From Nitrococcus mobilis (GTDB lineage Bacteria; Pseudomonadota; Gammaproteobacteria; Nitrococcales; Nitrococcaceae), in contig JAGFJL010000068.1 of the NCBI GenBank assembly GCA_024102725.1, positions 1 to 64,000 on the forward strand: a stretch of DNA of 64,000 bases, read 5' to 3'. The first letter of the stretch is position 1; each line of letters starts with the position of its first letter. The position numbers and the translations under genes were made by a program. The notes beneath the pieces are model-generated. The model saw nothing but the letters and a program-made list of their open reading frames with translations, was not told where the DNA came from and did no database searches. Positions 3,816 to 27,400 of this stretch are shown here, piece by piece.

Positions 3816-3819
3816 GGCT

Positions 3820-12800: not shown

Positions 12801-13074
12801 TCAGCTCGACGCCATACACCATATTGTAGGCCGGGCTGTGCGGAGCGAGCTTGTAGAACGCCCACATGGCCATTTGCCCGTCGCTGAGCGGGCGCTTGCA
12901 AAAAAAGCCCGGGTTTCGCCTCAGCCAAGCGGCGATCTCGGCGCCTCGCTCTTGCAGCAGGCGTTCGGCTTGCTCCTGCTGCGCCTCCAACGCGCAGCGG
13001 CAGACGAGCCTGTCATCGATCAGGCTAAATGCCACGCCCGAGGCGCGCAGAGACTTCATCAAGCTGTGCATCAT
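3820..13074 (-). CDS. NRPS: TubC docking - C - A(Asp) - T - T - C - A(Dab?) - T - C - Fe/2OG hydroxylase
   Basis: 3084 residues, first gene of the NRPS operon. Residues 1-55 resemble a TubC N-terminal docking domain. C1 is at 60-490 (HHIAGDF, 192-198). A1 is at 510-1005 with pocket D-L-T-K-V-G-H-V-G-K, i.e. Asp. Two consecutive T domains follow (LGGDSI at 1051 and 1123). C2 is at 1215-1640, opening YPLSPLQKGLLFHSL as in D-accepting C domains, with HHLIVDG at 1354-1360. A2 is at 1660-2165 with pocket D-I-W-E-V-P-A-D-D-K, which I recall as close to 2,4-diaminobutyrate codes. T3 has LGGHSL at 2211. C3 is at 2270-2700 (HHMVADG, 2407-2413). Residues 2745-3084 form a TauD/SyrP-like hydroxylase with iron ligands H2849, E2851 and H3043 and a 2-oxoglutarate Arg near 3052. 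No epimerase or thioesterase is present. The module is completed by the next gene. Product: likely a beta-hydroxyaspartate siderophore peptide. Confidence 0.95.
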   Translation of the reverse strand: MMHSLMKSLRASGVAFSLIDDRLVCRCALEAQQEQAERLLQERGAEIAAWLRRNPGFFCKRPLSDGQMAMWAFYKLAPHSPAYNMVYGVELRADIDLDRLGAAFAQVLASFEALCCGYREEDGEVLMVRPAALEPDFSVQRVERWDEAQVRAWMTRQADLPFALERAQVCRFRLLVNRAGSEARVFLCAAIHHIAGDFLSFELFCETVFRVYVELLNGQAPNLPESGLYWDWLAEQRQALNGARGEELARFWRDWLSGEPVPLALTTDFPRPREPSFAGEELDFVLSEDDSTGLKALASELDVSLFGVLAAVFQVFMHRYADQDDFLVGTPTAGRVGSKYRCLVGYTLNAVPLRARCGGNPPFADFVRRFSQDLRAAIKHQQYPLPLMTEHFAAVSEGGRPTLFRHMLTLVPVSAREVLNRHVVHEYFATQRGAANDLNLRWQDQGRCLIGQWRFSTDVFRRESIERMVDNFRAFISSVLAAPQARLSELQAVRPADRSLLRGPNRAPATETALAAFEHQVATHPRRFALVTSAGVFSYAELDAAAAGLAGRLWAAGLQPGGIVGLLLPRGAALMTAMLAAWKVGAAYVCLDPAAPTVRLQHVLADSGAVLVAGCGSGPDGLDGVRWFDLEAAASAPVSERPPALALRHPDLPAYVVYTSGSTGVPKGVVVSQGNLVNYVNGVLDVLELTPDASLGALSSAAADLGYTAWFGALLSGRTLRLIDDDLASDPEALALALEQAPVDCLKIVPSHLKGLLAVSRAECLLPRQCLVLGGEGLDLGLIRRLRELRPECHIVNHYGPTEATVGCLTHVVEHAAEPTLSGFAPIGTPLARTQVHVLDRYLNSMPRGAAGELYVGGASVAAGYLGRPGLTAERFIPDPFTGNGSRLYRTGDRARLLPGGMIEFLGRIDQQVKIRGFRVEPGEVEAWLKACPELADAVVAARPGPGGEGLRLVAYLVAAGPIDVQGLRARMVAALPDYLIPAAFMELPQLPLLPNGKVDRQGLPEPVVEGTSADGALDAPRDAVEMALVELWAELLGCATVSIRDDFFALGGDSILGLQLIAKARQRGLVINPKQLFEHPTIAALAQTIDTPTRSIEGVLETIWAEVLKQTAIDRHADFFALGGDSILTLQIIAKAKQQGLSFTPKDLFDHPSIVSLAAFLLDKKHSGAAVASQTIAAPTACPSPAAEPAAAAQPFALAGLDRSALERWRAERPSLEDIYPLSPLQKGLLFHSLLEGESGVYFNQLQVEIQGPFDPERFVAVWQQALDAHAILRTTFCWESLDEPLQCVHRKARLPVVMRDWRALERDAREWALQTFCREDRRQGFDLKQPPLMRLALLQVGPDRWWMVWSRHHLIVDGWCSVMLLEEILERYSAILAGTPPKLTSRPPYRDYIAWLTRQKTEDARAFWRKALAGVEGATPLPGLRPAAAGPMDYITRSLRFDAQATEQLKQAAKDGRVTLNTLMQAAWGLLLACYSGQEDVVFGVTSAGRPADLPGAERMLGVFINTLPLRLRPAGTLPVRDYLAAVQADNVAMREFEQTPLVDIQQYAGKGAALFDTLMVFQNLPMAQDRQIQQGELSLRQLDNLEQTNYGLTLEVLPGRELAVQFSADRRRLPDTDLARLMGHYRQLLLALAARPQSIIGELDLLGETEREQLQSWGCKAADYSLSPDWVARVEARVARYPQRIAVRCGAATLSYAELWRRSGELARGLTASGIGPDTVVALLFERGPEWLTLMVAVLRAGGAWVPLASTQPPARWKQVLEQAGQPLLVCDEPYREILIASGVERVCGTAELLACSGEGELPAVPARADQLAYVIFTSGSTGTPKGVMVTRQGMLNNMLAKIEPLALSEADVIAQTAPACFDISVWQSLTAPLIGGCVEIVPDAIVRDPQRLLDLLHRCQISLFEPVPALLQALLDTQGESILELPALRWVLPTGEALPPATAEAWFARYPAIPLMNAYGPAECSDDVAFQPLHRAPAAGERVAIGRPTANAELYVLDGNRQPVPIGVIGELAVGGVGVGRGYLADPRRTAAAFVPDPFGAEGGRLYLTGDLVRWRADGVLEYVGRKDFQVKLRGFRIELGEIEAVLERHPGVKRALAAVRRLGDSDALVGYWQEDETLAGQPAPDLAAYLRERLPDYMVPSAWMRMERWPLNANGKIDRRALPAPEPQSEAGLEPPATATEQRLVALWRELLAVETIGRQSHFFELGGHSLVATRLVSRLRRDWAIDLPLRTVFEAPTLSALAGRLEQARVEPHDDWPPLCAAARSATMPLSLSQQRLWLVDKLTGGTSSAYNMAAGLHLRGDLDASALHASLAYLMERHEVLRTAYPEVDGEAVAVVAAEARLEMPYTDLSGLSAAERDAQVKQAMARDARRPFDIGRAPLLRASLLKLAERCHLLLFAMHHMVADGWSVGVLINEFVAAYRARREGRIPDLSPLPVQYADYAVWQRQALSGERLRREVEFWKAQLDGAPSRLPLTTDYPRPPVASYDGDVVRFTVPTALVQRLDGLARAREATLFMVLLAGFQLLLHRLTGAPDLVLGTDVAGRRDSQLEGLIGFFVNVVPLRSRLEPRTDFLGLLEQTRRTTLDVFEHQDLPFDRLVEALEIPRDRRWNPLVQVLFVLQNTPDGRFDIPGLEIDILPPVQRQSKFDMALFLEPGDEGLSAEWVYSTALFKRETVQRLGHAWIRLLEQAAAQPDTALERFTLSDGKESRVMDDSKRKLDKLKKLTPRSAVAAQALKEPRILIRSSFLQAGREFPVVFEPSVDDLDPVAWARSQRHFIESMLCRHAGILFRNFGLETAQDFEAFAEAIQPDLYGGYGDLPKKEGGKNIYRSTPYPEQQMILFHNESSHLERWPRKQWFFCERPSPVGGATPIVDCREMYRRLPPGLIETFERKQLLYVRTFTDKLDVSWREFFKTDDRREVEARCRAAGTACRWLENDELQIRTVCPAVIRHPLTGERVFFNQVQLHHISCLEPEVRRDLLAMVGLERMPRHVYYGDGSPIEDEVMELIGQLYEECAVRFDWRRGDVIMLDNMLAAHARDPFEGPRRIVVAMAEMIEREQVALADPAVSFIPERQVQG
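4921..4939 (-). promoter_or_regulatory. Internal Shine-Dalgarno and ATG in front of the fused hydroxylase domain
   Basis: Inside the NRPS reading frame, at the junction between the last C domain and the hydroxylase, AAAGGAG (4939-4933, minus strand) stands nine bases before an in-frame ATG at 4923 (residue 2718). The linker that follows is Lys-rich. It could give a separately translated hydroxylase of 367 residues in addition to the fused form, or be a relic of a former gene boundary. Seen directly; use as a start is inferred. Confidence 0.4.
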
Positions 13075-13145
13075 CGCTTACAGATCCTTGCTTGCATCGC
13101 GGCTCACGCCGATCCGCTCCTTCGTGCTCTTACCGGGGCCAGCGT

Positions 13146-13175
13146 TTGCAAACCATAATAGAAATGATTAGTATT
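13146..13175 (+). promoter_or_regulatory. Predicted sigma-70 promoter with overlapping Fur-like site, for mbtH-acylase
   Basis: TTGCAA (13146-13151), a 17-base spacer and TAGTAT (13169-13174) form a plausible promoter pointing at the MbtH gene. An AT-rich, partly symmetric stretch AATGATTAGTATT (13163-13175) overlaps the -10 and resembles a weak Fur box. The 186-base gap also holds the upstream region of the divergent NRPS operon, so one iron-responsive site could serve both. The Fur match is imperfect. Confidence 0.35.
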
Positions 13176-13260
13176 GGCAACTATAGCTGCATGCCGGTTG
13201 CATTCAACCGTTCCATCCTATGCGGCACTCCACCTGTCATCACGCAAGGGGTGAAAAAAA

Positions 13261-13476
13261 ATGAGTTGGGACAGCCCGGAAACCCGCTTCAACGTAGTGG
13301 TCAACCACGAAGAGCAGTATTCGATCTGGCCGGACTACAAACCCGTACCCGCCGGCTGGCGCACCGTCGGCAAACAAGGCAGCAAGGACGAGTGTTTGGC
13401 TTACATCGAACAGGTCTGGACCGACATGCGCCCTTTGAGCCTGCGTCAAGCCATGCAAGCAGAAGAGCCGACCTGA
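13261..13476 (+). CDS. MbtH-like protein, NRPS adenylation-domain helper
   Basis: 71 residues, the usual family length. The protein begins with the family pattern of a short acidic start, then [19 protein letters not shown] and later [10 protein letters not shown], containing the conserved Trp and Pro residues of MbtH proteins. These small soluble proteins bind A domains of siderophore and antibiotic NRPSs and are often needed for their folding or activity. AAGGGG lies a few bases upstream of the ATG. The gene is divergent from the NRPS operon and is followed after 9 bases by the acylase gene. A partnership with the A domains of this cluster is expected but not shown by sequence. Confidence 0.96.
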
Positions 13477-13485
13477 GCGGCTCGC

Positions 13486-15984
13486 ATGACGTATCACCGG
13501 GTCGCGCTGTCGTTGTTGCTCGTTGCGACAGCGCTAACGGCAGGCACGGAGAACAGCCCGGGAGCCCAAAACACAACCGAGCCACGCATTTCGGCCCACT
13601 ACGACGTCGATGTTCGTCGCACGTCTTACGGCATTCCGCACATCAAGGCCCATGATTGGGGAAGCCTTGGCTATGGCTACGGTTATGCGCAGGCCGAAGA
13701 CAACCTGTGCACGCTCGCCGATGGTTTTGTCAGCTTTCGCGGTCGGCGGTCCTACTTTTTCGGTCCCGACCATACCCCGCCTGTCAATTCGACCTTCGGC
13801 CGGCCAAAAAACATCGATGTCGATTTCTTCTTCCGGTCAATCGCTCCGGACGAACTCGTACGGCAATACAAAGCCCATCAACCCCCGGAATTGCAGAACC
13901 TCGTCAAGGGGTTCGCCGCCGGTTACAGCCGTTACGTGCGAGAGATTAACTCGGGCGGCACACCAACGGTCCATCGGGCCTGCCGGTCCGAGCCGTGGGT
14001 AAGCGAAATTACCGAGGCGGATGTCTATCGGCGCATGTATGCCATCAACATCGCCGGCGGTTACGCTCAATTTCTGCCCCACATCGTTAACGCACAACCG
14101 CCTGACCGAAATGGCAACACGGTAGCAAAGTCAGACCAGAGGCTCTCGGCGGCAAGCATGAAAACGCTCGCAAGGCGCGTATCGAGCGCCCATTTTCAGG
14201 CTGGGGGGCAAGTCGGCATCGGCAGTAACGCAATCGCCTTCGGTGGGCAGGCCACGGACACCCCCCATGGCCTGCTGTTCGGCAACCCACACTGGTACTG
14301 GGGTGGTCCGGACAGGTTCTACCAAGCTCATCTGACCCTCCCGGGCGAAATCGATGTGAGCGGCGCATCGCTCCTCGGCCTGCCCTTTATTGTGATCGGC
14401 TATAACAACCACATCGCTTGGAGCCATACCGTCTCGACGGCCCGGCGATTCGGCCTGTTCGAACTAACCCTGGTGCCCGGCACGCCCACTTCGTATCGGT
14501 ACGACGGCGAGATACGGAAGATGACACCCCTGCCGATCACCATCGAGGCGCGCCGCTCCGACGGCCGGGTCGAAAAGGTCACGCGTACGCTCTACCGTAC
14601 CCACTTCGGCCCGGTGGTCGATTTACGCTCGTACTCGCCGGCGATGGGCTGGAGCGGCACCAGGGCCTTCGCGCTCCGAGACGTCAACGCCGATAACTTT
14701 CGAATATTCAGGGCCTATCTCCGCTGGGGGCAGGCCCACTCCCTCGATGAGTTCATCTCGATCCAGCAAGAGGAAGCGAGCGTACCTTGGCTCACCACGC
14801 TGGCCGTCGGCCGCAACGAACGACGGGCCTGGTACGCCGATATCGGCGCGATCCCCAACGTATCGGATGTCCTCGCAGCAACCTGCACCACCCGTCCGCT
14901 CGGAGCGGCGTTCACGCAATCCGCATCGGGCGTGCCGTTTCTCGATGGCTCGCGGTCGGCCTGTGAATGGCCGACCGAGCGGGATTCCGTCCAACCGGGA
15001 GCGATGGGGATTGCAAAGCTGCCGAGCCTGATCCGAGAGGACTATGTCGCCAACATGAACGACAGTCACTGGCTCACCAATCCGGCACAGCCATTGACCG
15101 GCTACCCGTCCATCATCGGCAGTGAGAAAACCGTTCAATCCTTACGAACCCGGCTGGGCCACCTACTCGTGCAGAGCCGTCTTGCCGGAACCGACGGCTA
15201 CGCCGGCGACAAGGCGACCAGTGCCATCATACGCAAGGTGGTGCTCGACAGCCGCGTGCTGTCGGCGGAATTGTTCAAAGCGCAGCTACTGGCCGATATC
15301 TGCGCCGAACGGCATGTAGTAACCGTCACACGGGATTCGGTGACGGGGGAGGCATTTTCCCCGGCCCGTGTAATCGACCTGTCGGGCGCCTGCGAAGTGC
15401 TACGCCAGTGGAACAACACCGGCAACACCAACGCCCGTGGGGTGCATATCTGGGATGAATTTTGGGCCCGTGCCAACCTCATCCCATCTTCGGAGCTGTT
15501 TGCGACACCCTTTTCCGCCACCGACCCGATCCATACCCCCCGCGACCTGAAGCCCGGCAATGCCCAGCTGTCAGAGGCCCTCGGCGTGGCGGTCCTGCGT
15601 GTTCAGCAGAGCGGATTTGCATTGGACGCGCCACGCGGCGAGTACTTGTTCGTCCGTCGTAACGGCACCAGGGTTTCACTGTTCGGAGGTTGCGGCAGTG
15701 TCGGCTATTTCACCGTAGTCTGCTCCGAGCATCGTATCGAGCAAGGCGGCTATCCCATCGATGGCGATTCGCACGGAAACACCTACCTGCAAGTAGTCAC
15801 CTTCTCGGAGGACGGGGTCGAACCCTACACCCTGCTCACCTTTTCCCAGTCGGACGATCCGGCCTCCCGGCACTTCGGCGATTACACGCAGCGCTATGCC
15901 GGCAAGCAGTGGCTGCGCGTGCCCTTCAGAGAAAGCGAGATCAGGGCAGATCCCGCGTTCACGGCTATCTCATTGCATCACTGA
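13486..15984 (+). CDS. Periplasmic penicillin-acylase-family acylase, PvdQ-like
   Basis: 832 residues. Residues 1-27 look like a secretion signal. The alpha part (about 30-246) contains the family pattern YGIPHIKA and YGYAQAEDNLC. Autocleavage is expected at G246/S247 in GIGSNAIAFG, making S247 the N-terminal nucleophile of the beta chain. The beta chain carries GNPHWYWGG, FYQAHLTLPG and a C-terminal FSQSDDPAS...WLRVPF pattern closely resembling PvdQ as I remember it. Members cleave long acyl amides: PvdQ removes the fatty acid from the pyoverdine precursor and also hydrolyses acyl-homoserine lactones. Next to an NRPS siderophore locus the maturation role is more likely, but quorum quenching cannot be excluded. 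Its end overlaps the convergent hydroxylase gene by 7 bases. Confidence 0.93.
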   Translation: MTYHRVALSLLLVATALTAGTENSPGAQNTTEPRISAHYDVDVRRTSYGIPHIKAHDWGSLGYGYGYAQAEDNLCTLADGFVSFRGRRSYFFGPDHTPPVNSTFGRPKNIDVDFFFRSIAPDELVRQYKAHQPPELQNLVKGFAAGYSRYVREINSGGTPTVHRACRSEPWVSEITEADVYRRMYAINIAGGYAQFLPHIVNAQPPDRNGNTVAKSDQRLSAASMKTLARRVSSAHFQAGGQVGIGSNAIAFGGQATDTPHGLLFGNPHWYWGGPDRFYQAHLTLPGEIDVSGASLLGLPFIVIGYNNHIAWSHTVSTARRFGLFELTLVPGTPTSYRYDGEIRKMTPLPITIEARRSDGRVEKVTRTLYRTHFGPVVDLRSYSPAMGWSGTRAFALRDVNADNFRIFRAYLRWGQAHSLDEFISIQQEEASVPWLTTLAVGRNERRAWYADIGAIPNVSDVLAATCTTRPLGAAFTQSASGVPFLDGSRSACEWPTERDSVQPGAMGIAKLPSLIREDYVANMNDSHWLTNPAQPLTGYPSIIGSEKTVQSLRTRLGHLLVQSRLAGTDGYAGDKATSAIIRKVVLDSRVLSAELFKAQLLADICAERHVVTVTRDSVTGEAFSPARVIDLSGACEVLRQWNNTGNTNARGVHIWDEFWARANLIPSSELFATPFSATDPIHTPRDLKPGNAQLSEALGVAVLRVQQSGFALDAPRGEYLFVRRNGTRVSLFGGCGSVGYFTVVCSEHRIEQGGYPIDGDSHGNTYLQVVTFSEDGVEPYTLLTFSQSDDPASRHFGDYTQRYAGKQWLRVPFRESEIRADPAFTAISLHH

Positions 15985-16967
15985 GCCTCGATGGAATACG
16001 ACTGAGCCATAGCCACCACCACCTGGCGAGGACCGCTGAACGGGCAACGCCCATGCGCGGCCAGCATGTTATCCAGCATGAGAATATCACCCTGCTGCCA
16101 GGGGAACTTGACGGTGCAGGCATCCAACACGCCGCGCACGTGCTCGAGCACCTCCGGCTCGATGGGTGAACCGTCGCCGTAGTAGACGTTGCGCGGCAAA
16201 TCGGCCTCGTCGACCACACCCAGTAAGGCATCCCTTATGGTCGGCGCCAGATTGGAGACATGGAACAGATGCGCCTGGTTGAACCACACCCATTCGCCGC
16301 TGGCAGGATGCCGGGCTACGGCCTGGCAAATCTGGCGGGTACGTAGCTCCCCGTCGGGTTTCCACTCGAGCTGGATACGGTGCGCCCGGCAAAAAGCCTC
16401 GACGATGGCGCGGTCCTCGGTATTAAAGGCCCGTTGCCACGGCAGGTCCAAACCGTTGCCGTAGTTACGTACATACATCAGGCCCAGTTGAGAGAAGCGC
16501 CGACAGACATCGGCATCGATGCGGCGGTAGATCTCACGGCAATCCGCAATAGGCGTCTCGCCGCCTTGCTTGCTCGGCTGCACACAGTGGAACCAGATTC
16601 TCATAGGCCACTCCAGCGTGTAGGACTGCTCGCTGTGCAGCGGAATGGCCTGATGAGCGGGATATTCCGTAGACGTATATACGCCCTCGCCCAGGTCCGT
16701 GCGCGGGGTGGAGCCGAACTCATAGCTCAGCAGCGGGGAGCCGAAGGAACGGGCGAAACGCTGAAAAGCGGCTATATCCGGCACGTCGAAGCCGCGAAAT
16801 AACAGCCCACCAGCTTCCGGTAAAACGTGCGCGACCAACCCCGGGAGCTGCGCCAGCCAATCATCCAAGGGTGCACGCCACGGTGGTATGACCACCAATG
16901 GAAGAGACTCTGTTTCATCCAGGGAAGAGACTTGGAGACCATCCGCATGTTCGACCAGTGCACGCAT
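15978..16967 (-). CDS. Stand-alone TauD/SyrP-like Fe(II)/2-oxoglutarate hydroxylase, probable Asp beta-hydroxylase
   Basis: 329 residues from the ATG at 16967, chosen because GGAG lies 8 bases upstream; GTG at 16976 is an alternative. The fold signature is clear: HSE (H111, E113) and LDNMLAAHGR (H305) supply the iron ligands, and R314 in the GPR motif should bind 2-oxoglutarate. It resembles the hydroxylase domain fused to the large NRPS through shared patterns such as YYGDGSPIE, TPIxDCRE and FNQ, so the two probably arose by duplication or are related siderophore enzymes. Family members hydroxylate amino acids held on T domains. A free-standing form corresponds to the TbetaH-Asp subtype. The gene is transcribed away from the Fur-like site at 17079. 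Confidence 0.9.
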   Translation of the reverse strand: MRALVEHADGLQVSSLDETESLPLVVIPPWRAPLDDWLAQLPGLVAHVLPEAGGLLFRGFDVPDIAAFQRFARSFGSPLLSYEFGSTPRTDLGEGVYTSTEYPAHQAIPLHSEQSYTLEWPMRIWFHCVQPSKQGGETPIADCREIYRRIDADVCRRFSQLGLMYVRNYGNGLDLPWQRAFNTEDRAIVEAFCRAHRIQLEWKPDGELRTRQICQAVARHPASGEWVWFNQAHLFHVSNLAPTIRDALLGVVDEADLPRNVYYGDGSPIEPEVLEHVRGVLDACTVKFPWQQGDILMLDNMLAAHGRCPFSGPRQVVVAMAQSYSIEAQ

Positions 16968-17078
16968 CCTCACCACTCCAGTTTCCGAAGAGTTGCCGTT
17001 TTCGTTGTTTATCAGGCGCGCCGGCAGAAACGGCCTGGGCCGCCCGCGCTGACTGCCAGAGCATATGATAATAACACG

Positions 17079-17091
17079 AATAATAATTATT
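17079..17091. promoter_or_regulatory. Fur-box-like 6-1-6 inverted repeat between hydroxylase and PPTase-remnant/Dab genes
   Basis: AATAATAATTATT is a 6-1-6 palindrome (AATAAT-A-ATTATT) inside a strongly AT-rich patch (about 17063-17105) in otherwise GC-rich DNA. This matches the Fur consensus pattern. It lies about 110 bases before the hydroxylase start and upstream of the rightward genes, suggesting iron repression of both. The rest of the 350-base gap between 16968 and 17317 shows no convincing gene. Confidence 0.6.
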
Positions 17092-17180
17092 TGTAATTAT
17101 GAAAACAATCCAGTAACCTCCCTCGTAGCGCGCGTAACGCTTCACTGCCGGGGTGGAAATAAACACAAGCAAAGGAAGTG

Positions 17181-17195
17181 CAATGAGCGGGGCCG
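17181..17195 (+). repeat. 15-bp direct repeat, copy 1 (copy 2 at 17389-17403)
   Basis: CAATGAGCGGGGCCG occurs exactly at 17181-17195 and again at 17389-17403, 208 bases apart. Copy 1 carries an ATG preceded by AAAGGAAG. Copy 2 lies at the frameshift of the phosphopantetheinyl transferase remnant. Chance is unlikely at this distance; replication slippage or a local rearrangement is the simplest explanation. Confidence 0.6.
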
Positions 17196-17317
17196 TCGCC
17201 ATAGTAATAAGGCATCGCCCGAACGCCTGGAGCGGATCACCAATGCACCAAACACCGCAACTCTGGCGGCTGCTCGCGAACCATCCGCGCTGTTTGGGCC
17301 AAAGGGAAAGGCCAAGA

Positions 17318-17876
17318 ATGCAACTAAGCCCCGAGGAGATCCACATCTGGCGGGTGGACACCACCCAGGACGTCGAGGCGGTGCTTGCCAATGAGCGGGG
17401 CCGAGTTGCACAAAAGCGCGCGCTTGCGCCTACCGCGCGACCGCCGACGCCACCGCACGACCCGGAGCGCGCGGCGGCGAATTCTGGCGCATTACCTCAA
17501 AGCCATGGATTCGTCCTTGGACTGGGCTCTGCTCGCCGAGGCTCACTGTCATCCGCGAGAGCAGGCCTATACCGTTGGTGACGAACCGGCCGGTGCCCTG
17601 GCTCGCTTTTATCGGATCTGGACCCGCAAGGAGGCGTACCTCAAGGGTATCGGAACCGGCCTCACGCGGCCGCCGGAATCGTTCTGCACCCTGTCCGAGC
17701 GGATCGATGGCTGGTCCCTGCACAACTGGCCCGAACCACCTCCCGGCCACGTGGCCGCACTGGCAACCCCGCTGTCACGATCAGCCTGGGCGGTATGCGA
17801 ATTCGCCGTGCACGCCGACAGCTACAAGCCAATGTCAAAACCCAACCAAAGGAGAGCGCCATGGGTGACTCGTTAA
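17318..17876 (+). pseudogene. Broken 4'-phosphopantetheinyl transferase (Sfp type)
   Basis: Two frames together give a recognisable Sfp-type protein. The first frame starts at ATG 17318 with an EIHIWRVD pattern typical of the N-terminus. Near 17385 (GTGCTTGCCAATG) the match moves to the +1 frame, giving LRLPRDRRR and RRRILAHYL; dropping one T would restore continuity. After AHYLK the expected NLSHS and GVDVE segments with the magnesium ligands are missing. The text resumes as ALARFYRIWTRKEAYLKGIG, the WxxKEA motif, and ends at 17876, overlapping the next gene start. The frameshift could be a sequencing error, but the internal loss of catalytic residues argues for a dead gene. Its original role would have been to activate the NRPS T domains; another PPTase must now do that. 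Confidence 0.75.
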
Positions 17877-19279
17877 ACCTCGAGGCCTTCACGCAGCAGG
17901 CACCGATCCGCCTTGAGTCCAACGACTATCTGACACGCCAGGAACATCTCGAGTCCAATGCCCGCTCTTACCCGCGGCGCATTCCGTTGGCCCTGAAAAA
18001 GGCCCAGGGCATCTATCTGCAGGATACCACCGGACAGCTCTTCATTGATTGCCTCGCCGGGGCGGGCACATTGGTGTTGGGTCATAACCACCCGAACACC
18101 GTAGCGGCCATGCGCAAGGTTCTGGACAGCGGCATGCCCCTACACACTCTAGATCTCACCACGCCCGTCAAGGATCGCTTTATCAACGATCTGTTCTCGG
18201 TTCTGCCGCCGGAACTCTCCGAGCGAGCCCGCATTCAATTCTGCAGTCCCTCCGGCGCCGACGCCATCGAAGCGGCCCTGAAGCTGGTGAAAACGGCTAC
18301 TGGGCGCCGGGGTATCTTTGCGTTCTCCGGCGGCTATCACGGCATGACCCATGGCGCGCTTGCCCTGATGGGCAATCTCGGGCCGAAGCGACCGATCAGC
18401 GGGCTGATGCCCGAGGTGCACTTCCTGCCCTTTCCTTACGACTACCGCTGCCCCTTTGGTCTGGGCGGCGAACAGGGAATCGATGCCAGCCTCAACTACA
18501 TCCGTCACCTGCTCACGGACCCAGAGTCGGGGGTACCCACACCCGCCGCGATTGTCGTCGAGGCGGTACAGGGCGAAGGGGGTGTCATCCCGGCCCCGCT
18601 CCGATGGCTGCAGGGGCTCCGGGAGCTGACGCGCGAGCGGCACGTCCCGCTGATCATCGACGAAGTACAAACGGGGATCGGGCGCACCGGCCGGCTGTTT
18701 GCCTTCGAGCACGCCGGCATCCTGCCCGACGTCCTCGTCTTGTCCAAGGCCATCGGCGGCGGGCTACCGCTCTCCGTGGTGGTCTATGACGCGGAGCTGG
18801 ACCGCTGGGAGCCGGGCGCCCACGCGGGCACGTTCCGCGGCAACCAGCTCGCCATGGCAGCCGGCTCGGCCACGCTGACCACTATCGTCCGCGAACATCT
18901 GGCCACGCACGCCCAGCACATGGGTGATCGGCTGCGGCAGCAGCTTGTGGCGCTGCAGACGCACTACCCGGCACTGGGGGAAGTGCGCGGCCTGGGGCTG
19001 ATGCTTGGGGTGGAAATCGTCAATCCTCATGACGAGCCCGACCCCCGCGGCTGCTTCCCAGCCGACTCGGGCATGGCGCAACGCATTCAGCGGCACTGCC
19101 TGAACAACGGCGTGATCGTGGAGTTGGGCGGGCGCTTCGGCAGTACGGTACGGTTTCTGCCGCCGCTGATTATCTCGGAACAGGAGGTCGATCAAGTCGC
19201 CCGCTCCTTCGCTTCGGCCGTGGAAGCCGCCCATGCGGACAGGCGTTTACGCGACCGTCTCGTGCGCTCCGTGGGGTGA
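17861..19279 (+). CDS. L-2,4-diaminobutyrate:2-oxoglutarate aminotransferase
   Basis: 472 residues from ATG 17861, which has AAAGGAG seven bases upstream. Class-III PLP aminotransferase features are present: CSPSGADAIEAALKL, the GGYHGMTHGAL block, DEVQTGIGRTG and the Schiff-base Lys in LSKAIGGGLP. The sequence follows the EctB/PvdH branch that converts aspartate semialdehyde and Glu into 2,4-diaminobutyrate (Dab). No ectoine genes (ectA, ectC) are near, whereas an A domain of the adjacent NRPS has a Dab-like pocket, so supply of Dab for the siderophore is the likely job, as PvdH does for pyoverdine. A longer start at 17795 is possible but would run through the PPTase remnant. Confidence 0.9.
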   Translation: MGDSLNLEAFTQQAPIRLESNDYLTRQEHLESNARSYPRRIPLALKKAQGIYLQDTTGQLFIDCLAGAGTLVLGHNHPNTVAAMRKVLDSGMPLHTLDLTTPVKDRFINDLFSVLPPELSERARIQFCSPSGADAIEAALKLVKTATGRRGIFAFSGGYHGMTHGALALMGNLGPKRPISGLMPEVHFLPFPYDYRCPFGLGGEQGIDASLNYIRHLLTDPESGVPTPAAIVVEAVQGEGGVIPAPLRWLQGLRELTRERHVPLIIDEVQTGIGRTGRLFAFEHAGILPDVLVLSKAIGGGLPLSVVVYDAELDRWEPGAHAGTFRGNQLAMAAGSATLTTIVREHLATHAQHMGDRLRQQLVALQTHYPALGEVRGLGLMLGVEIVNPHDEPDPRGCFPADSGMAQRIQRHCLNNGVIVELGGRFGSTVRFLPPLIISEQEVDQVARSFASAVEAAHADRRLRDRLVRSVG

Positions 19280-20696: not shown

Positions 20697-21722
20697 CTAT
20701 TTGGGAGCCACCACTCGAACCGGCGCGCCGGAATCGATGCCAAGGGCACGGCCGGTCGCCGCATCGACCAGCAGCTCATTGCCGATCCGCTCGGCCGGCA
20801 CCAGCACGCAGCGGAACTCACCCCAATGCGTGTTGCTGATCAGCCGGCGCGGAGCGCTCTCGGCAACCGAACCGATGCGCACAGGCAAACGCTCGCTGTG
20901 CCGCACGGAACGGATCTGCCCTACCCGGGCCTCCATCGTGGGTCCAGCATCGAAGATGTCCACATAACCCTCATAGTGAAACCCCTCCTCCTGCAGAAAG
21001 GTCAATGCCGCCCGTGTGTGGTCATGAACGCGGCCGATCACCGCTTGTGCATCGGCTCTGAGCAAGGGCACGTAGATGGGATTGCGTGGCATCAACTCGG
21101 CGATGAAGGTTTTGCCTCGCGTTCCCGTGAGGTAATCGGCGCGCCGAAATTCCATCGAAAAGAAATGCTGCCCCAGGGACTCCCAAAACGGTGAACGGCC
21201 CTGCTCATCGCTGACCCCGCGCATCTCGGCCACCACCTTGGAGGAAAAGCGCTCGGCGAACTCGGCGAGAAAAAGGAACCGAGACTTGGACAACAACCGG
21301 CCGTTACCGCTGTGGCGGTAGTCGGGATGTAGATACAGCGAGCCGATCTCGGCACAGCCCGTGTAGTCGTTGGTGAGATAGAGCGTCGGCACCACCTTGT
21401 GGACACCGAGCTCGCGCGAGGCATGCACGACGGTGCTGAGACGATAGCTGTAGTAAGGCTCACTCAAGCCGATACCGGTCTTGATCGCGGTGGTTCCCAC
21501 AATCCGAGCGGTGGCGCTGTCCTCAAGGACAAAGAAAAACAACCGCTCGGCTGCGCAATCGGCGCTGCTCGCCGATTGCGCGAAGCTTTGTTGTGAATGC
21601 TCGAGCCGCAGGCGCAGCGTAGCGCGGTCGCGTGGCAGTGATGTCAGCCCGACACCGGTACTCTCGACCAACGCCTCCAGCGCTTGCAGATCTCCGGGCT
21701 CGATGGGTCGAATGCTCATCAT
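20697..21722 (-). CDS. astA: Arginine N-succinyltransferase
   Basis: 341 residues, matching the family length. The protein begins MMSIRPIEPGDLQAL, a GNAT-like acyltransferase start, and contains LYLTNDYTGCAEIGSLYLHP and GNGRLLSKSR, which are characteristic of AstA/AruF. It transfers succinyl from succinyl-CoA to the alpha-amino group of arginine, the first step of the ammonia-producing arginine succinyltransferase route. The other ast genes (B, C, D, E) are not in the window. Its ATG overlaps the stop of the upstream M20 hydrolase gene by four bases (ATGA), so the two are translationally coupled. An ornithine-preferring variant is possible. Confidence 0.93.
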   Translation of the reverse strand: MMSIRPIEPGDLQALEALVESTGVGLTSLPRDRATLRLRLEHSQQSFAQSASSADCAAERLFFFVLEDSATARIVGTTAIKTGIGLSEPYYSYRLSTVVHASRELGVHKVVPTLYLTNDYTGCAEIGSLYLHPDYRHSGNGRLLSKSRFLFLAEFAERFSSKVVAEMRGVSDEQGRSPFWESLGQHFFSMEFRRADYLTGTRGKTFIAELMPRNPIYVPLLRADAQAVIGRVHDHTRAALTFLQEEGFHYEGYVDIFDAGPTMEARVGQIRSVRHSERLPVRIGSVAESAPRRLISNTHWGEFRCVLVPAERIGNELLVDAATGRALGIDSGAPVRVVAPK

Positions 21723-22963
21723 GATGATTCACCCCTGAACGCCACCCCCTCGCACCGACCACTGGCAAGGCCAAGCAGCAGTAGCGCGCTCAGCCGGCTC
21801 CGCTCGATCAGGCTGGGAAGCTCTACATACTCAGCGACGCTATGGAGACCACCGCCGATTACCCCCATCGTATCGATATTCGGCAGACCAGCGGCACTGA
21901 GATTATTGCCATCGCAGCAGCCCCCCGTATCCCGCCAGGTGATATTGAGACCCAGCGTGCGCCCGCAGCAACGCACCCACTCGAAAAGCCGCCGATGCGC
22001 CGCATCGAGAACCTTCGGTTTACGGCCGAAATCACCATGCAAGGCCAGCGTAATGCCGTCGCGGGCGTTGATCTCCTGGTTGATCGCCGCTAGCCGCCCC
22101 AACACCCACGCCTCGTCTGCCGGGTCAGACAATCGGATATTGAATCGAACGACAGCACGGTCGGGCACCATGTTCACCGGACCGCCGCCATGAACGAACC
22201 CTGGATTGACCGTCACCCCAGGTTGGCGGCCATTGAGCTCATCGACGGCGATCAGGAAATCGGCGGCGGCCCGCACCGCATTGCGCCCGAGGTGGTGCTC
22301 ACGCCCGGCGTGCGCGGCCCGGCCACGCACGACGGCGGTGAAATTACCGCTGCCCTTGCGGGCGGCCGCAAGGGCGCCATCCGCCATGGCCGGCTCGTAG
22401 ACCAGCCCCAGGTGGTTGCGTCCCGCCGCTGCGCGCAAGTGGGCAGCCGAGCCCGGCGACCCCAGCTCCTCGTCCGGATTCAGCACCACCTCCCAACCGA
22501 GACGCCCCGCCCAGGGGCTGCGCTCCAAGCATTCGAGCGCCTTGAGCATCACCAACAGGCCGCCCTTGAGATCGGCGACACCTGGACCTTTGAGTTGTGT
22601 CGGACTGACGCGCTCAGCCCTCTGAAACGCATGTTCGATACCAAAGACCGTATCCATGTGACCAACGAGTAGCACCCGCAACGCTGCGTCAGGGTACTTG
22701 GACAGGCGCAGCACCGGACCGAGCTCGCAAACGCGCGGCTCGCCGTCGTCATCAATCCGAACGATAGGCTCGAGCACAACCCTCCGCACCTGTCCACCTA
22801 GGACGCCGAACAAGTGGCTCAGCTCGGCCGCCATGCGCTCCAGACCGGCGATGTTATAGCTGCCCGAGTTGATGTCCGCCAAATACGCCAGACCGGCTAC
22901 CATCTCATCATACTGAGCCTCGAGCCAATCGAGGTAGGATGTGAGGGTCTTGAGCTCAGCCAC
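21719..22963 (-). CDS. M20-family metallohydrolase (carboxypeptidase G2-like)
   Basis: 414 residues from the GTG at 22963; the match to the family begins around there (VAELKTLTSYLDWL), and longer starts upstream have no supporting similarity. Zinc-site motifs are visible: VGHMDTVF (His, Asp), GPGVADLKGG (Asp) and NPDEELGSPGS (Glu-Glu), with a dimerisation domain in the middle containing VRGRAAHAG and a terminal His in GGGLHSVAEY. M20 enzymes cleave amide bonds of N-acyl amino acids or small peptides. Coupling to astA suggests a role around N-acylated amino acids in arginine breakdown, but the substrate is unknown. Confidence 0.88.
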   Translation of the reverse strand: MAELKTLTSYLDWLEAQYDEMVAGLAYLADINSGSYNIAGLERMAAELSHLFGVLGGQVRRVVLEPIVRIDDDGEPRVCELGPVLRLSKYPDAALRVLLVGHMDTVFGIEHAFQRAERVSPTQLKGPGVADLKGGLLVMLKALECLERSPWAGRLGWEVVLNPDEELGSPGSAAHLRAAAGRNHLGLVYEPAMADGALAAARKGSGNFTAVVRGRAAHAGREHHLGRNAVRAAADFLIAVDELNGRQPGVTVNPGFVHGGGPVNMVPDRAVVRFNIRLSDPADEAWVLGRLAAINQEINARDGITLALHGDFGRKPKVLDAAHRRLFEWVRCCGRTLGLNITWRDTGGCCDGNNLSAAGLPNIDTMGVIGGGLHSVAEYVELPSLIERSRLSALLLLGLASGRCEGVAFRGESS

Positions 22964-23222
22964 GATAGCCCATCCCGCACCAGCCGTTCGCTTGACTATG
23001 GCACTCGGCAGCCTAACCGACAGCGCCCGGCTTGACCGGACCGGGCTGCCCACCGAAATGAAAAGATGCGCACAAATTCACGCTTAACCTGCCTACCGTT
23101 TCTATCTCGAACTGCGATTCGGTTAGCATTTTTCCGCCTTCATCCGCTTTAGCATGGATTGGACTGTTTCAAATAGCATCGCGCGCAACAATGTCTTTGG
23201 GGCTCTCGCCAAGGAGGCTTGG

Positions 23223-24656
23223 ATGGAGCGTCTGTGCACGGGGGTCGACGGGCTGGATGAAATTCTGCACGGAGGGCTCATCCCGCAACGCTCGTACCTG
23301 ATACGGGGCGGGCCCGGCCGGGGCAAAACGACGCTCGGACTGCACTTCCTCACCGCGGTCGATGACAGCGAATCCGCTTTGTTCATCGGCTTTCAGGAAC
23401 CGGAAGCGCAGTTGCACAGCAATGCGGCCTCGCTGGGAATCGACGTCTCGGCGGTCACTTTCCTGAGCCTCGCACCCGATGCGCAGTTCTTCACCGAGCA
23501 GCAAAGCTACGATGTCTTTGCCGCAGCAGATGTCGAACAACAACCGCTTGTCGAGGCGATTATACAGGCGGTAGAGCACCATCACCCAACTCGCGTGTTC
23601 GTCGATTCGCTATCCCAGCTTCGCTTTCTCTCCACGGACATTTTTCAGTATCGCAAGCAAGTACTGTCATTCCTACGCTACCTGACCCAACGAGGCGCAA
23701 CCGTGTTGTTCTCCTCCGAGAGCAGTCGCGAATTGCCCGACGACGACCTGCAATTCATCGCCGATGGCGTGATTAACCTGGAAGCGGACGTTTCTGGACC
23801 GGCCATTCGAATATCGAAAATGCGCGGCTCGAGCTTCCGCTTCGGAATGCATCACATGCGCGTCGCCGGCGGCGGCTTGAAGGTCTTTCCGCGCATGATC
23901 CCAGCAAGCAGCCGGCGGGCTGAACTCCAGTTGCAGTGTTGGGGCACGGGGGTGAAGAAAATCGATGAACTCCTACATGGCGGACTGGCGGCGAGTACGG
24001 TTTCCTTGATTACCGGGCCATCCGGTATCGGCAAATCAACCTTGGCGGCCCTGTTCGTTGCCGAAGCGGCGCGCCGAGGCGAGCGGGCCGCGATCTTTCT
24101 GTTCGAGGAAGAAATTGCCTTCTTCCTGCGCCGGGCCAAGAATCTCCACCTGCCGCTGGAGGAGCCTTTTGCCGATGGCCGAATCTCGATCGAACAAGTA
24201 GAGCCCATGCGCTACCTAGTCGACGAGTTCACCATGCGGGTGCGTGAACAGGTCGAGGAGGCTGACGTCAAAATGGTGGTGCTCGACAGCGTTACCGGCT
24301 TCGAGATCGCGCTGGGTGGGGAGGCCGTTAGAGAGCGCTTGCACGCCTTCGCCAAGGGCCTGAGCCGATTGGGCGTTACGGTACTGCTGATCAATGAGAT
24401 CGAGGCCATGACCGGAGAGTTCCGCATCTCGGAGAAGAGCATCAGCTACCTCTCGGACAACGTGATCTTTCTGCGCTACATGGAGATCGACGGCATGCTC
24501 AAAAAGGCGATCGGCGTTCTCAAGAAGCGGCTCAGCGGTTTTGACAACCGGCTGCACACGTTCGAGATCGGCCCTGGGGCATTCAAGATCGGCGCGCCGA
24601 TCCATGGTCTGCATGGGGTGTTGGGGGGAACCCCAATGCCCCAGGACGAATCATGA
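23223..24656 (+). CDS. KaiC-like double-domain RecA/DnaB-type ATPase
   Basis: 477 residues from ATG 23223, preceded by AAGGAGG at six bases. Two KaiC domains are present: CI with Walker A GGPGRGKTT and CII with GPSGIGKST. The paired catalytic Glu is kept in CII (FLFEEE) but altered in CI (GFQEPE). At the site of the KaiC phosphorylation pair Ser431/Thr432 the sequence is I-S408-Y409 in SISYLSDNVIFLRYME, so one Ser remains and Thr is replaced by Tyr. No kaiA or kaiB is near. It forms an operon with a receiver-like protein and an EAL protein, suggesting a regulatory ATPase/kinase feeding c-di-GMP signalling rather than a true clock. Confidence 0.92.
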   Translation: MERLCTGVDGLDEILHGGLIPQRSYLIRGGPGRGKTTLGLHFLTAVDDSESALFIGFQEPEAQLHSNAASLGIDVSAVTFLSLAPDAQFFTEQQSYDVFAAADVEQQPLVEAIIQAVEHHHPTRVFVDSLSQLRFLSTDIFQYRKQVLSFLRYLTQRGATVLFSSESSRELPDDDLQFIADGVINLEADVSGPAIRISKMRGSSFRFGMHHMRVAGGGLKVFPRMIPASSRRAELQLQCWGTGVKKIDELLHGGLAASTVSLITGPSGIGKSTLAALFVAEAARRGERAAIFLFEEEIAFFLRRAKNLHLPLEEPFADGRISIEQVEPMRYLVDEFTMRVREQVEEADVKMVVLDSVTGFEIALGGEAVRERLHAFAKGLSRLGVTVLLINEIEAMTGEFRISEKSISYLSDNVIFLRYMEIDGMLKKAIGVLKKRLSGFDNRLHTFEIGPGAFKIGAPIHGLHGVLGGTPMPQDES

Positions 24657-25030
24657 TAGCAGCGGCTGCAGCCACGATCCTGCTGGTCATGAAAAAGCCC
24701 GGCAACGTGCGCGTCATGCAACAGACACTCGCTCGGTCCGGCTACACGGGTAAGATGATCTCCGGCGTGGCGGAGCTGCAGGCGACCCTGGCAGAGCCAC
24801 TCTCCCCGCGCCTAGGGATTGTGGACGTCACCGATTTCGGTTCCAACGGCCGGCAAATACATACCATATATACCTGCTTGCAGGAGCGCAGTATCCCGTT
24901 CGTCGTGCTCTCGGCACCGCAAGCGCTCGATCTCGGTAACCACTCATTCGCATATGGCGCCACCAACGTTTTGCCCAAGCCGATTGCGAAGTCCGCGCTG
25001 CTCCAGCTTATTCATGGTTTGGCGGCTTAG
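24653..25030 (+). CDS. Stand-alone receiver-like (pseudo-receiver) protein
   Basis: 125 residues with a CheY-like pattern: beta-1 ILLV, a possible phospho-acceptor Asp in LGIVDVTDFG, Ser in VVLSAP and the conserved Lys in VLPKPI. The acidic pair that normally follows beta-1 (DD) is Met-Lys here (ILLVMKKPGN), so magnesium binding and phosphorylation are doubtful. Its start overlaps the stop of the KaiC-like gene (ATGA), implying coupled translation and a shared function, possibly as a binding partner of that ATPase. Confidence 0.8.
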   Translation: MIAAAAATILLVMKKPGNVRVMQQTLARSGYTGKMISGVAELQATLAEPLSPRLGIVDVTDFGSNGRQIHTIYTCLQERSIPFVVLSAPQALDLGNHSFAYGATNVLPKPIAKSALLQLIHGLAA

Positions 25031-25110
25031 GATAGCTTATCAGCACACCGGTGAGCACGGCCGGCCGCTGTCCTTCGCAATCCGGGTCCGGCCTGAAAAG
25101 GTGATCGGCT

Positions 25111-26844
25111 ATGGCTCATCGCAACACAGTCCCATGGGTTTGTTGGCGCGGCTCGAACAGTAGCGTAATTTCAACTGAAGAGCTGACACCGTTGGATGAA
25201 AACGCTTCCAAGCGAGTTCTGCTGCTGGCGCGCTCGGGCGGCAATCGGGAACAATTGGTGACTCATCTGCAACGGCGCTATGAGGTCATCGAACCGGATG
25301 AGGCGGCGCTCTCCTTGGCACCGTTCGACCTCGCCGTCGTCGAGACCACCAGTTTCTGGCAGTGGCGCCAACATCTCATGGAGGCCAAGCGGCGGGAAGA
25401 ACCCGTCTTTCTGCCCGTGATGCTTGTGCTATCGCAGCGCGATGTCAGGCACAAACTCAAAGCCTTTTGGGATGTAGTCGACGAGTTCGTCGTCGCACCG
25501 GTCAATCGTAGTGAATTTGCGGAGCGGGCGGCTATGCTGCTGCGCACCCGTCGGCTCGCACTGACTCAGCGGGCCCATCTGGCCTATTTGGTCAATCACG
25601 ATCGCGCCACGGATCTGCCCAACAAACACCTATTCATGGACCGGCTCATCAACGCGGTGCGTGATGCCGCCGTCCTCGATACGAAACTGTATATGATGGT
25701 GATCCATATCCCGTTGGCGCGCATCTTGAAATCCTTGGGACACCATGGCCTTGAGCGTGCCGCTATAGCGTGCTCGGTGCGTCTCAAGGCAGTACTCGCC
25801 GAGGAGCTTTCCCTCGCCCGGTTGACCACCGAAGAGTGGGGTCTGATCCCACGCCCGGGCACACCGCTGGATGTGGTGATCGAGCTTTGTCGCCGCATTC
25901 AGAAGCTGGCCGAGGAGCCACTCATGGTGCTCGGCGAGCACATCCACGTCTCGCCCCGTATCGGCATCGGGATCTATCCAGACGACGCCTCCAACGCGGC
26001 GAATACGCTGGATTGCGCCATAGCGGCGTTGTCGCAGACCAAAGCCGAGCAGCCGGTTTTTTATTCGCGCACCGTCCAACACCAGGCACTTCGGCACATT
26101 CGCACCGAGGCGCGTCTGCATCAGGCGCTTGATGAGGCGCAATTCGAGCTCTGGTATCAACCGCAGGTGCGCCTCAGTGATCGCCAGCAGGTAGGCGTCG
26201 AGGCACTGATACGTTGGCGGCTACCCGGCGGAGCGCTGGTCTCGCCCAAAGATTTCATGGCCGTAGCCGAGAGCACCGGACTTATCCGTGATATCGACCG
26301 CTGGGTGCTCGATCGCGCCTGCGCGGCCATGCACCGCTGGCGTAATGAACATGACGCACCAAAGCGGATATCGGTCAACGTCTCCACCGAGGACATCAAA
26401 GCGGCCGACTTTGCCGAGGTGGTGGTGCGCATTCTGGATCAGTATCAGCTCCCACCCCCCACGCTTGAGCTCGAGCTAACGGAGACCACATTATTTGAAA
26501 TAAGTGCCGATAACTTAGCCAAACTCAATACCTTGCGAGAATATGGAGTGAGTGTGGCGATCGACGATTTTGGAACCGGCTACTCTTCTTTGAGTTATCT
26601 GCATCGACTACCGATCACCACTTTGAAAATCGACAAGGCCTTTGTCGACGATGTGACCCACAATCTGACCAATCAAGCCATTACTCGCACAATCGTCTGG
26701 CTGGCGAAGAATTTCAACTTGGAAGTCGTTGCCGAGGGAATCGAAACCGTGGCACAGGCTCGCTACTTGAAATCGCTGGAAGTACACACCGGGCAAGGTT
26801 TTTTGTATGGCCACCCGGCTCCCGAAGCGCTGTTCCGCCGATGA
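25111..26844 (+). CDS. Pseudo-receiver - degenerate GGDEF - EAL cyclic-di-GMP phosphodiesterase
   Basis: 577 residues from ATG 25111 (GGTGAT upstream); the ATG at 25195-25197 would be a shorter alternative. Residues 25-150 resemble a receiver domain without the acidic pocket (VVETTSF at the acceptor site). Residues 165-320 match a GGDEF domain in which the signature is TTEEW, so no cyclase activity is expected. The EAL domain at 335-577 keeps the catalytic set: E364-A-L, the Asn of SVNVS, ELTET, IDDFGTGYSS, the Lys of LKIDKAFV and EGIET. It should hydrolyse c-di-GMP to pGpG. It is 80 bases behind the receiver-like gene and probably in the same operon as the KaiC-like ATPase. Confidence 0.92.
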   Translation: MAHRNTVPWVCWRGSNSSVISTEELTPLDENASKRVLLLARSGGNREQLVTHLQRRYEVIEPDEAALSLAPFDLAVVETTSFWQWRQHLMEAKRREEPVFLPVMLVLSQRDVRHKLKAFWDVVDEFVVAPVNRSEFAERAAMLLRTRRLALTQRAHLAYLVNHDRATDLPNKHLFMDRLINAVRDAAVLDTKLYMMVIHIPLARILKSLGHHGLERAAIACSVRLKAVLAEELSLARLTTEEWGLIPRPGTPLDVVIELCRRIQKLAEEPLMVLGEHIHVSPRIGIGIYPDDASNAANTLDCAIAALSQTKAEQPVFYSRTVQHQALRHIRTEARLHQALDEAQFELWYQPQVRLSDRQQVGVEALIRWRLPGGALVSPKDFMAVAESTGLIRDIDRWVLDRACAAMHRWRNEHDAPKRISVNVSTEDIKAADFAEVVVRILDQYQLPPPTLELELTETTLFEISADNLAKLNTLREYGVSVAIDDFGTGYSSLSYLHRLPITTLKIDKAFVDDVTHNLTNQAITRTIVWLAKNFNLEVVAEGIETVAQARYLKSLEVHTGQGFLYGHPAPEALFRR

Positions 26845-26884
26845 TGCCGCGAGTTAGGCTCACAAGGGAAAAAGATACGACGAT

Positions 26885-27400
26885 TCAGACAGGAGATAAC
26901 TCAGGCGTATAGCCACGCTTGCTCAACCAATCCTGCAGCGCAACACCGCTCCCGCATGGCCATGGGCGAAGCTGCTCCGGCGCCAGCCGACGAATCTCCG
27001 CCAGCTCGGCGCTCAGCACGGGCTCACCTTCGATAAGCACATAGTAGACCAGCAGTAGCTGATTGTTCCCGGGATTAGGGTAGGTCCCAACGAATTCGGC
27101 GATAGTGCCTTGCAGACCAAGCTCCTCCATCACCTCGCGCAACACGCCCTGCTCCGCCGTCTCAGCTGGCTCTAGGTAGCCGGCGAGCAAACCGAACTTG
27201 CCTTTGGGCCACCAGGCGTTACGTACCAGGACTATACTCTCCTCCAACTCAACGATCGCAGCCACCACGGGTACCGGATTATCCCAGAAGACGAAGCCGC
27301 ATTCCGCAACAGCGCAAGCCAGACGGGAGCGCCCGCCCAGCTCTCTACTGATGAGCTCGCGGCGGCATTTGGGGCAATATCGCCGAGAATCGGCCGTCAT
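26885..27400 (-). CDS. Nudix hydrolase with zinc ribbon, NudC-like
   Basis: 171 residues. CPKC near the start and a second Cys pair (CAVAEC) form a zinc ribbon, followed by the Nudix box GYLEPAETAEQGVLREVMEE, which keeps the GX5EX7REUXEE pattern. The arrangement resembles the C-terminal half of NADH pyrophosphatase NudC, though the typical SQPWPF motif is absent, so the substrate is uncertain (NAD(H), capped RNA or another nucleotide). It begins 9 bases after the pnp stop and is likely read with the rpsO-pnp operon; a link to RNA turnover is an inference from position. Confidence 0.88.
   Translation of the reverse strand: MTADSRRYCPKCRRELISRELGGRSRLACAVAECGFVFWDNPVPVVAAIVELEESIVLVRNAWWPKGKFGLLAGYLEPAETAEQGVLREVMEELGLQGTIAEFVGTYPNPGNNQLLLVYYVLIEGEPVLSAELAEIRRLAPEQLRPWPCGSGVALQDWLSKRGYTPELSPV

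Follow-up and report, generated by a model that had tools for sequence, protein, structure and literature searches.

The stretch of DNA analysed here (the window) comprises 64,000 nucleotides of Nitrococcus mobilis contig JAGFJL010000068.1, taken from a gammaproteobacterial genome of 3.25 Mb in 185 contigs. Its positions 23223-26844 hold three genes running in one direction, the first two overlapping by ATGA, just as a preliminary description of the window had read them. They encode a KaiC-like ATPase, whose closest named match is that of Nitrococcus mobilis Nb-231 (90-91% identity), a small stand-alone protein resembling a receiver, and an output protein that carries an EAL domain and is predicted from its residues to be a phosphodiesterase for cyclic di-GMP (c-di-GMP). 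The receiver-like N-terminal domain of the output protein is referred to throughout by a label coined in this analysis, PsR. The features of the locus are as follows.

23211-23217, plus strand: Shine-Dalgarno sequence AAGGAGG, backing the KaiC-like start at 23223
23223..24656, plus strand: gene for the KaiC-like ATPase, 477 amino acids, two KaiC domains (Pfam KaiC twice, 1e-67; best PDB match KaiC; alignment A1)
23307..23333, plus strand: Walker A site of the first KaiC domain, GGPGRGKTT (Lys35 in 84/84 clade members having the site)
24015..24041, plus strand: Walker A site of the second KaiC domain, GPSGIGKST (Lys271 in 86/86 clade members)
24444..24449, plus strand: Ser408-Tyr409, equivalent to S431/T432 of Synechococcus elongatus KaiC (PDB match, alignment A1)
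24653..24656, plus strand: ATGA overlap of the KaiC-like gene and the stand-alone receiver gene
24653..25030, plus strand: gene for the stand-alone receiver-like protein, 125 amino acids (Pfam Response_reg below threshold; AlphaFold model; Foldseek)
25111..26844, plus strand: gene for the output protein, PsR-degenerate GGDEF-EAL, 577 amino acids (Pfam, residue alignment, structure model)
25210..25563, plus strand: PsR, a receiver-fold N-terminal domain tied to this KaiC clade (148.6 bits to the family model; structure model)
25594..26049, plus strand: degenerate GGDEF domain, reading TTEEW (Pfam GGDEF, 1e-12)
26113..26817, plus strand: EAL phosphodiesterase domain with a complete active site (Pfam EAL, 7e-72)

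Comparison of the window with its relatives revealed purifying selection on all three genes within Nitrococcus, with ratios of nonsynonymous to synonymous substitution rates (dN/dS) of 0.16-0.19 for kaiC, 0.28-0.34 for the receiver gene and 0.11-0.12 for the EAL gene; the trio are therefore not chance reading frames, and dN/dS together with conservation likewise ruled out that they are pseudogenes. An alternative in-frame start for KaiC further upstream, at 23154, was dropped in favour of 23223, which has the support of both the Shine-Dalgarno sequence and the alignment. Translational coupling across the ATGA overlap is likely, and an identical 4-base overlap occurs at 13 of the 48 loci that have the receiver gene.

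The preliminary description had proposed a search for the same three-gene order in other genomes and had taken lack of conservation as a mark against its interpretation. The order does recur: the trio is also present in Nitrococcus, Arhodomonas, Halomonadaceae and Saccharospirillum. Among 59 relatives, the window's own genome aside, 11 contained a match to the KaiC at 42-91% identity, clearly separated from KaiC proteins of other families (25-29%). When the alignment of these matches (A1) was run against 84,980 species genomes, it returned 80 loci, distributed over Gammaproteobacteria, Cyanobacteriota, Chloroflexota, Thermodesulfobacteriota, Myxococcota, Nitrospirota, Verrucomicrobiota and Bacillota. 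With hidden Markov models that we built for the stand-alone receiver and for PsR, 82 of 86 KaiC genes of this clade proved to have a co-directional PsR gene no more than 1.5 kb downstream, the ends of neighbouring genes often being separated by a few bases or overlapping by four. As a negative control, loci of other KaiC families were analysed (25-29% identical, several with KaiB-like and GGDEF/EAL genes), and PsR was present at none of the 15.

Because the loci had been found through KaiC, the reverse search was run independently, with the PsR model (A2) and with A1. Across 321 gammaproteobacterial genomes, PsR exceeded 60 bits in five only (148, 123, 78, 76 and 75 bits), the next score, 54 bits, merging into the background of ordinary receivers. 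KaiC of the clade scored above 600 bits in exactly those five genomes, and in each the PsR and KaiC genes were adjacent and co-directional; three genomes with other KaiC families (350-412 bits) had no such PsR. Twelve further genomes of known loci gave the same picture from both sides, PsR adjoining 13/13 clade KaiC genes and KaiC adjoining 13/14 strong PsR matches. The exception is a strong PsR match in a 1794-residue frame of Microcoleus (G373 C3:150905-151282), away from clade KaiC. Two other loci show irregularities in reading frame: the kaiC frame of L077 is split and one TGA lies inside the extended match of L137, possibly reflecting a pseudogene or a sequencing error, and the PsR-EAL gene is open in both.

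The domain attached to PsR varies. PsR heads EAL proteins at 14 loci, HD-GYP proteins at five, a GGDEF protein at one and histidine kinases at 53, with several more falling under 'other' by the simple motif rule used. Partners confirmed with Pfam were HD-GYP, GAF-GGDEF-EAL, PAS-GGDEF-HD, GGDEF and HisKA-HATPase. By reading of the sequence, the gene downstream of kaiC at a verrucomicrobial locus (L085) encodes PsR fused to a SpoIIE/RsbU-type phosphatase. The output domain is thus exchanged while PsR stays, as expected of a docking or regulatory domain. In a quick KaiC tree, with some long branches and with two truncated or PsR-less rows counted as changes, the window's group of 14 rows (Nitrococcus, Arhodomonas, Halomonadaceae, Saccharospirillum, Marinobacter and relatives) was set off from the rest by a branch with full support. 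Another EAL group (L041-L043), with the architecture PsR-GAF-GGDEF-EAL and an intact GGDEF motif, lay apart among HD-GYP relatives. Three or more changes involving EAL are required by the starred branches of this tree. Enzymes of c-di-GMP turnover thus seem to have been recruited repeatedly, and the association of KaiC with such enzymes appears, on these sequences, to have evolved more than once.

Pfam has no family for PsR, and the first 150 or so residues of the EAL protein were unmatched. In the structure model (whole-model predicted local distance difference test, pLDDT, 83.7), residues 35-162 follow the order beta-alpha-beta-beta-alpha-beta-alpha-beta-alpha, a predicted arrangement that is receiver-like and unlike the thioredoxin order of KaiB or SasA. 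The window's PsR has no acidic pair, and Glu78 occupies its phosphoacceptor position; this Glu is confined to the four Nitrococcus proteins, Asp being present in 67 of 82 PsR members. In ordinary receivers, Glu at the phosphoacceptor place is able to mimic phosphorylated Asp. With the remaining pocket absent, Glu78 is only a hint of such a phospho-mimic here. Downstream of PsR, the reading of TTEEW for GGDEF and of a complete EAL site in the preliminary description was borne out. The GGDEF motif is degenerate in 10/10 aligned EAL-type partners, lacking the GG(D/E)EF signature of a diguanylate cyclase, and E364-A-L, N423, E455, E458, D485, D486, K506, E542, E545 and Q562 of the EAL domain are invariant in the same number. 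About ten further full-length EAL domains are encoded in the genome, and the window's EAL protein is therefore one among many c-di-GMP enzymes.

Pairing with interchangeable output enzymes in several phyla makes this look like a real KaiC signalling module. We propose, with a probability of roughly 0.6, that the module operates without KaiA or KaiB and that KaiC contacts PsR and sets the activity of the fused output, here the breakdown of c-di-GMP. The KaiC-like ATPase, presumably a hexameric ring whose state is set by ATP hydrolysis and probably by autophosphorylation of Ser408, would bind the receiver-fold PsR at the N terminus of its partner, and binding would alter the attached output domain, in Nitrococcus the EAL phosphodiesterase. 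Retention of the ATPase residues of both KaiC domains and invariance of the EAL catalytic residues are consistent with this proposal. Several points weigh against it. Four of the 86 KaiC loci have no PsR nearby (L037, which reaches a contig end, L039, L074 and L131), the 86 loci come largely from cyanobacteria and were picked with patterns derived from the clade itself, and the search of 321 genomes took no more than 14 PsR candidates from each genome for scoring. Membership of one operon, moreover, speaks for a shared process and is no proof of direct binding, and KaiC could act downstream of c-di-GMP, not upstream.

Under control in that reverse direction, the state of KaiC would be set by the PsR-EAL protein, which might bind c-di-GMP or GTP at its degenerate GGDEF domain or at PsR; the target of KaiC would be encoded elsewhere. 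Degenerate GGDEF domains often serve as ligand sensors, as is generally known. The pseudo-receiver of ShkA can bind c-di-GMP (PMC12632262), and the clock of S. elongatus is altered by the level of c-di-GMP (PMC13001216). E. coli BcsE, which by domain make-up resembles the window's trio in combining a RecA/KaiC-like domain with a degenerate receiver and a degenerate GGDEF domain, senses c-di-GMP (PMC7439463); unlike the trio, however, BcsE is a single polypeptide whose ATPase-like domain is degenerate and which has no EAL domain, and it binds c-di-GMP for cellulose secretion. Reverse control sits poorly with the occurrence of PsR on five kinds of output, including histidine kinases that have no c-di-GMP domain, and with an EAL active site that is fully kept and not degenerate, and we regard it as unlikely.

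The part played by the stand-alone receiver-like protein was considered separately. It scored below the Pfam Response_reg threshold (22.2 bits versus a cut-off of 30.2), yet its AlphaFold model, built from a 29-row alignment, has the (beta-alpha)5 receiver fold (pLDDT 85.6; predicted template modelling score, pTM, 0.81), and the Foldseek matches listed for the model were receivers. The preliminary description had the acidic pocket missing from both receiver-type domains, and the acidic pair is indeed absent from both; in the stand-alone protein Met13 and Lys14 take its place, while Asp58, Ser87 and Lys109 are kept, leaving the phosphorylation pocket incomplete. Across 48 stand-alone receivers, Asp was conserved in 48, Lys in 47 and Ser in 44, and the first residue of the pair was acidic in 26 (no aligned member of the EAL clade among them) and the second in none. 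Because only the Mg-binding acidic pair has been lost, in a family that keeps Asp, Ser and Lys in nearly all members, the further claim of a 'phosphate-independent' switch is unproven.

The receiver gene was found between kaiC and the PsR gene at 48 of the 86 clade KaiC loci, at one of them without PsR, and was not found at the other 38. In the sister Nitrococcus lineage, one relative (G002) retains only a 46-base remnant encoding YGA..V..KPIA.SA, with an alignment score of 28 versus 16 for the best of 500 shuffles. In a second relative (G004) the gene is deleted, and the kaiC stop overlaps the start of the PsR-EAL gene. No convincing unlinked copy was detected in the Nitrococcus relatives that have no receiver gene at the locus, the only match being a generic receiver of 26% identity in G004. 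At L037 (6745-6936), a locus of a Nitrococcus relative, a decaying remnant of the receiver gene lies directly after kaiC, on a contig that ends short of the EAL gene. Loss or decay in two relatives leaves KaiC and the PsR-output protein as the core, to which the small receiver is, judged from these sequences, a dispensable accessory. The preliminary description's view of the trio as a unit therefore needs amending: the gene order is conserved, but the constant partner is the N-terminal domain of the output protein. In the proposed module the stand-alone receiver would be a modulator that can be lost, probably competing with PsR or bridging to it. An ordinary two-component branch, in which an unlinked histidine kinase still phosphorylates this receiver, which then signals to KaiC or PsR with KaiC as an extra sensor, appears improbable. 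The conserved Asp, Lys and Ser would suit such a branch, as would one cyanobacterial relative above the Pfam receiver cut-off and the adjacency of such genes to histidine kinases; the acidic residues missing from the family, and the absence or decay of the gene, speak against it.

The KaiC-like protein itself has the residues of a two-domain KaiC ATPase. Both Walker A sites are kept, as first described, and their Lys35 and Lys271 are conserved across the clade, as are the catalytic Glu59 of the first domain and Glu295/Glu296 of the second; in domain 1, Glu59 is preceded by Gln58, at a position held by Glu in classical KaiC. The C-terminal tail of KaiC is the place where KaiA binds. Here the protein ends about 5 residues past the last aligned motif, where solved KaiC chains extend for about 25, so that the KaiA-binding tail is missing. 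No match to KaiB (PF07689) or KaiA (PF07688) was obtained in the window's genome, which is 96% complete and in which this KaiC is the sole strong one; the idea of a module lacking both proteins thus stood up. In place of the Ser-Thr phosphorylation pair of circadian KaiC, the protein has Ser408-Tyr409. The alignment to S431/T432 agrees with the preliminary description, which had Ser kept and Thr replaced; a local loss of Thr it is not, since the dipeptide is Ser-Tyr in 80 of the 86 clade members (Ser-Pro in 2, Ser-Phe in 2, Thr-Tyr in 1, Ser-His in 1) and Tyr at the second site is therefore the rule of the clade. A site of the Ser-Tyr type was already reported in 2011 for KaiB-less KaiC genes (PMC3164672), and Tyr at the same place for some KaiC3 proteins (PMC5520375). 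That KaiC is an hourglass timer imposing slow, time-dependent changes in c-di-GMP is a guess and a very doubtful one, the preliminary description having spoken of a timer or sensor: the catalytic residues and Ser408 are kept, and KaiB-less KaiC paired with a receiver-like histidine kinase has been suggested to work as an hourglass (PMC3164672), but KaiA, KaiB and the KaiA-binding tail are lacking and Tyr stands for Thr at the second site.

The nearest known relative is a KaiB-less arrangement in which a histidine kinase gene invariably comes next after kaiC and, in Ramlibacter, is transcribed together with it (PMC3164672). The N-terminal domain of that kinase, RtaNt, is weakly similar to receivers and to SasA/KaiB and was proposed to bind KaiC (PMC3164672). 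The idea drawn from this weak similarity, that PsR is a KaiB/SasA-type thioredoxin domain, was rejected, the model showing receiver topology. Both contexts have a Ser-Tyr KaiC, no KaiB, and a downstream partner with a receiver-like N-terminal domain; the partner here is a GGDEF-EAL protein and not a histidine kinase, although kinase partners are found in other clade members. PsR and RtaNt can be likened by description, and the present system very probably belongs to the same lineage, with other outputs. As in the cyanobacterial KaiABC clock, KaiC here has two domains, its ATPase residues are intact and Ser occupies the place of S431; the output proteins of the clock reach KaiC or KaiB by way of a thioredoxin-like domain (SasA) or a pseudo-receiver (CikA). 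The clock differs in possessing KaiA, KaiB, the KaiA-binding tail and Thr432, and PsR is modelled as a receiver fold, not as the thioredoxin fold of KaiB/SasA. RocR-type phosphodiesterases, RocR being among the Foldseek matches listed, likewise have a receiver-fold domain upstream of a complete EAL domain. RocR has a normal receiver and no GGDEF domain, whereas the receiver of the window's output protein is degenerate and KaiC-linked.

KaiC is also linked to c-di-GMP enzymes at the proteobacterial kaiC-kaiB loci of the 'orange' group (PMC3164672). Unlike the window's system, these have a KaiC of a different family (25-29% identity), a KaiB-like gene in several cases, and GGDEF/EAL proteins without PsR. 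At L046, L047, L049, L050, L053, L054 and L056, a KaiC of another family (25-29%) has GGDEF/EAL genes as neighbours and no PsR, and a KaiB-like gene of about 100 residues is present at some; these loci are a second, separate association of KaiC with c-di-GMP in the same bacterial order. In a mixed group of the 2011 study, many kaiC genes precede a receiver gene or have GGDEF/EAL genes close by (PMC3164672). KaiC-like ATPases have further been described as archaeal signalling hubs, in mBio work of 2017 as cited in PMC5847659. Work from 2011 thus already described the form with a histidine kinase, as well as KaiC genes in the vicinity of receiver, GGDEF and EAL genes (PMC3164672). Our literature search found no account of a domain shared by EAL, HD-GYP and GGDEF proteins or of its linkage to KaiC. 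Added here are the sharing of one domain, PsR, by outputs of the EAL, HD-GYP, GGDEF and SpoIIE types, the receiver fold predicted for it, and its linkage to KaiC in genomes searched from both sides. Tentatively, and at somewhat less than even odds, PsR may be a dedicated KaiC-docking domain, a functional replacement for KaiB/SasA, through which KaiC ATPases independent of KaiA and KaiB would drive outputs that can be exchanged, among them EAL and HD-GYP proteins that would place c-di-GMP under direct control in Gammaproteobacteria.

Around the trio, a scan of 22950-27000 for consensus sigma-70 promoters found no promoter-like site, and a terminator scan of the same interval gave a single terminator-like site, lying upstream of kaiC on the minus strand, which is fewer than in shuffled sequences. 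Divergent from kaiC, on the minus strand at 20697-23053, lies an AstA-like succinyltransferase gene beside one for an M20-family peptidase (21719-23053); open reading frames of matching lengths and order are present upstream of kaiC in N. mobilis (L035) and Co_bin.43 (L036). Further away, 585-19279 looks like a peptide siderophore cluster, its genes being named from a reading of the translations alone. It includes large nonribosomal peptide synthetase genes of 1076 and 3084 amino acids, the latter ending in a TauD-like hydroxylase, together with a separate TauD-like hydroxylase (15978-16976), a penicillin-acylase/PvdQ-like protein (13486-15984), a short open reading frame resembling a 4'-phosphopantetheinyl transferase (17385-17876) and a diaminobutyrate-type aminotransferase (17795-19279).

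The majority of non-cyanobacterial KaiC proteins have no known job. The compact module described here offers the rate of a phosphodiesterase as a readout for the role of a KaiC that has neither KaiA nor KaiB, and ties the ATP-driven KaiC family to c-di-GMP, the main lifestyle switch of bacteria. Its logic of swapping outputs may account for the diversification of KaiC signalling ahead of the clock or alongside it.

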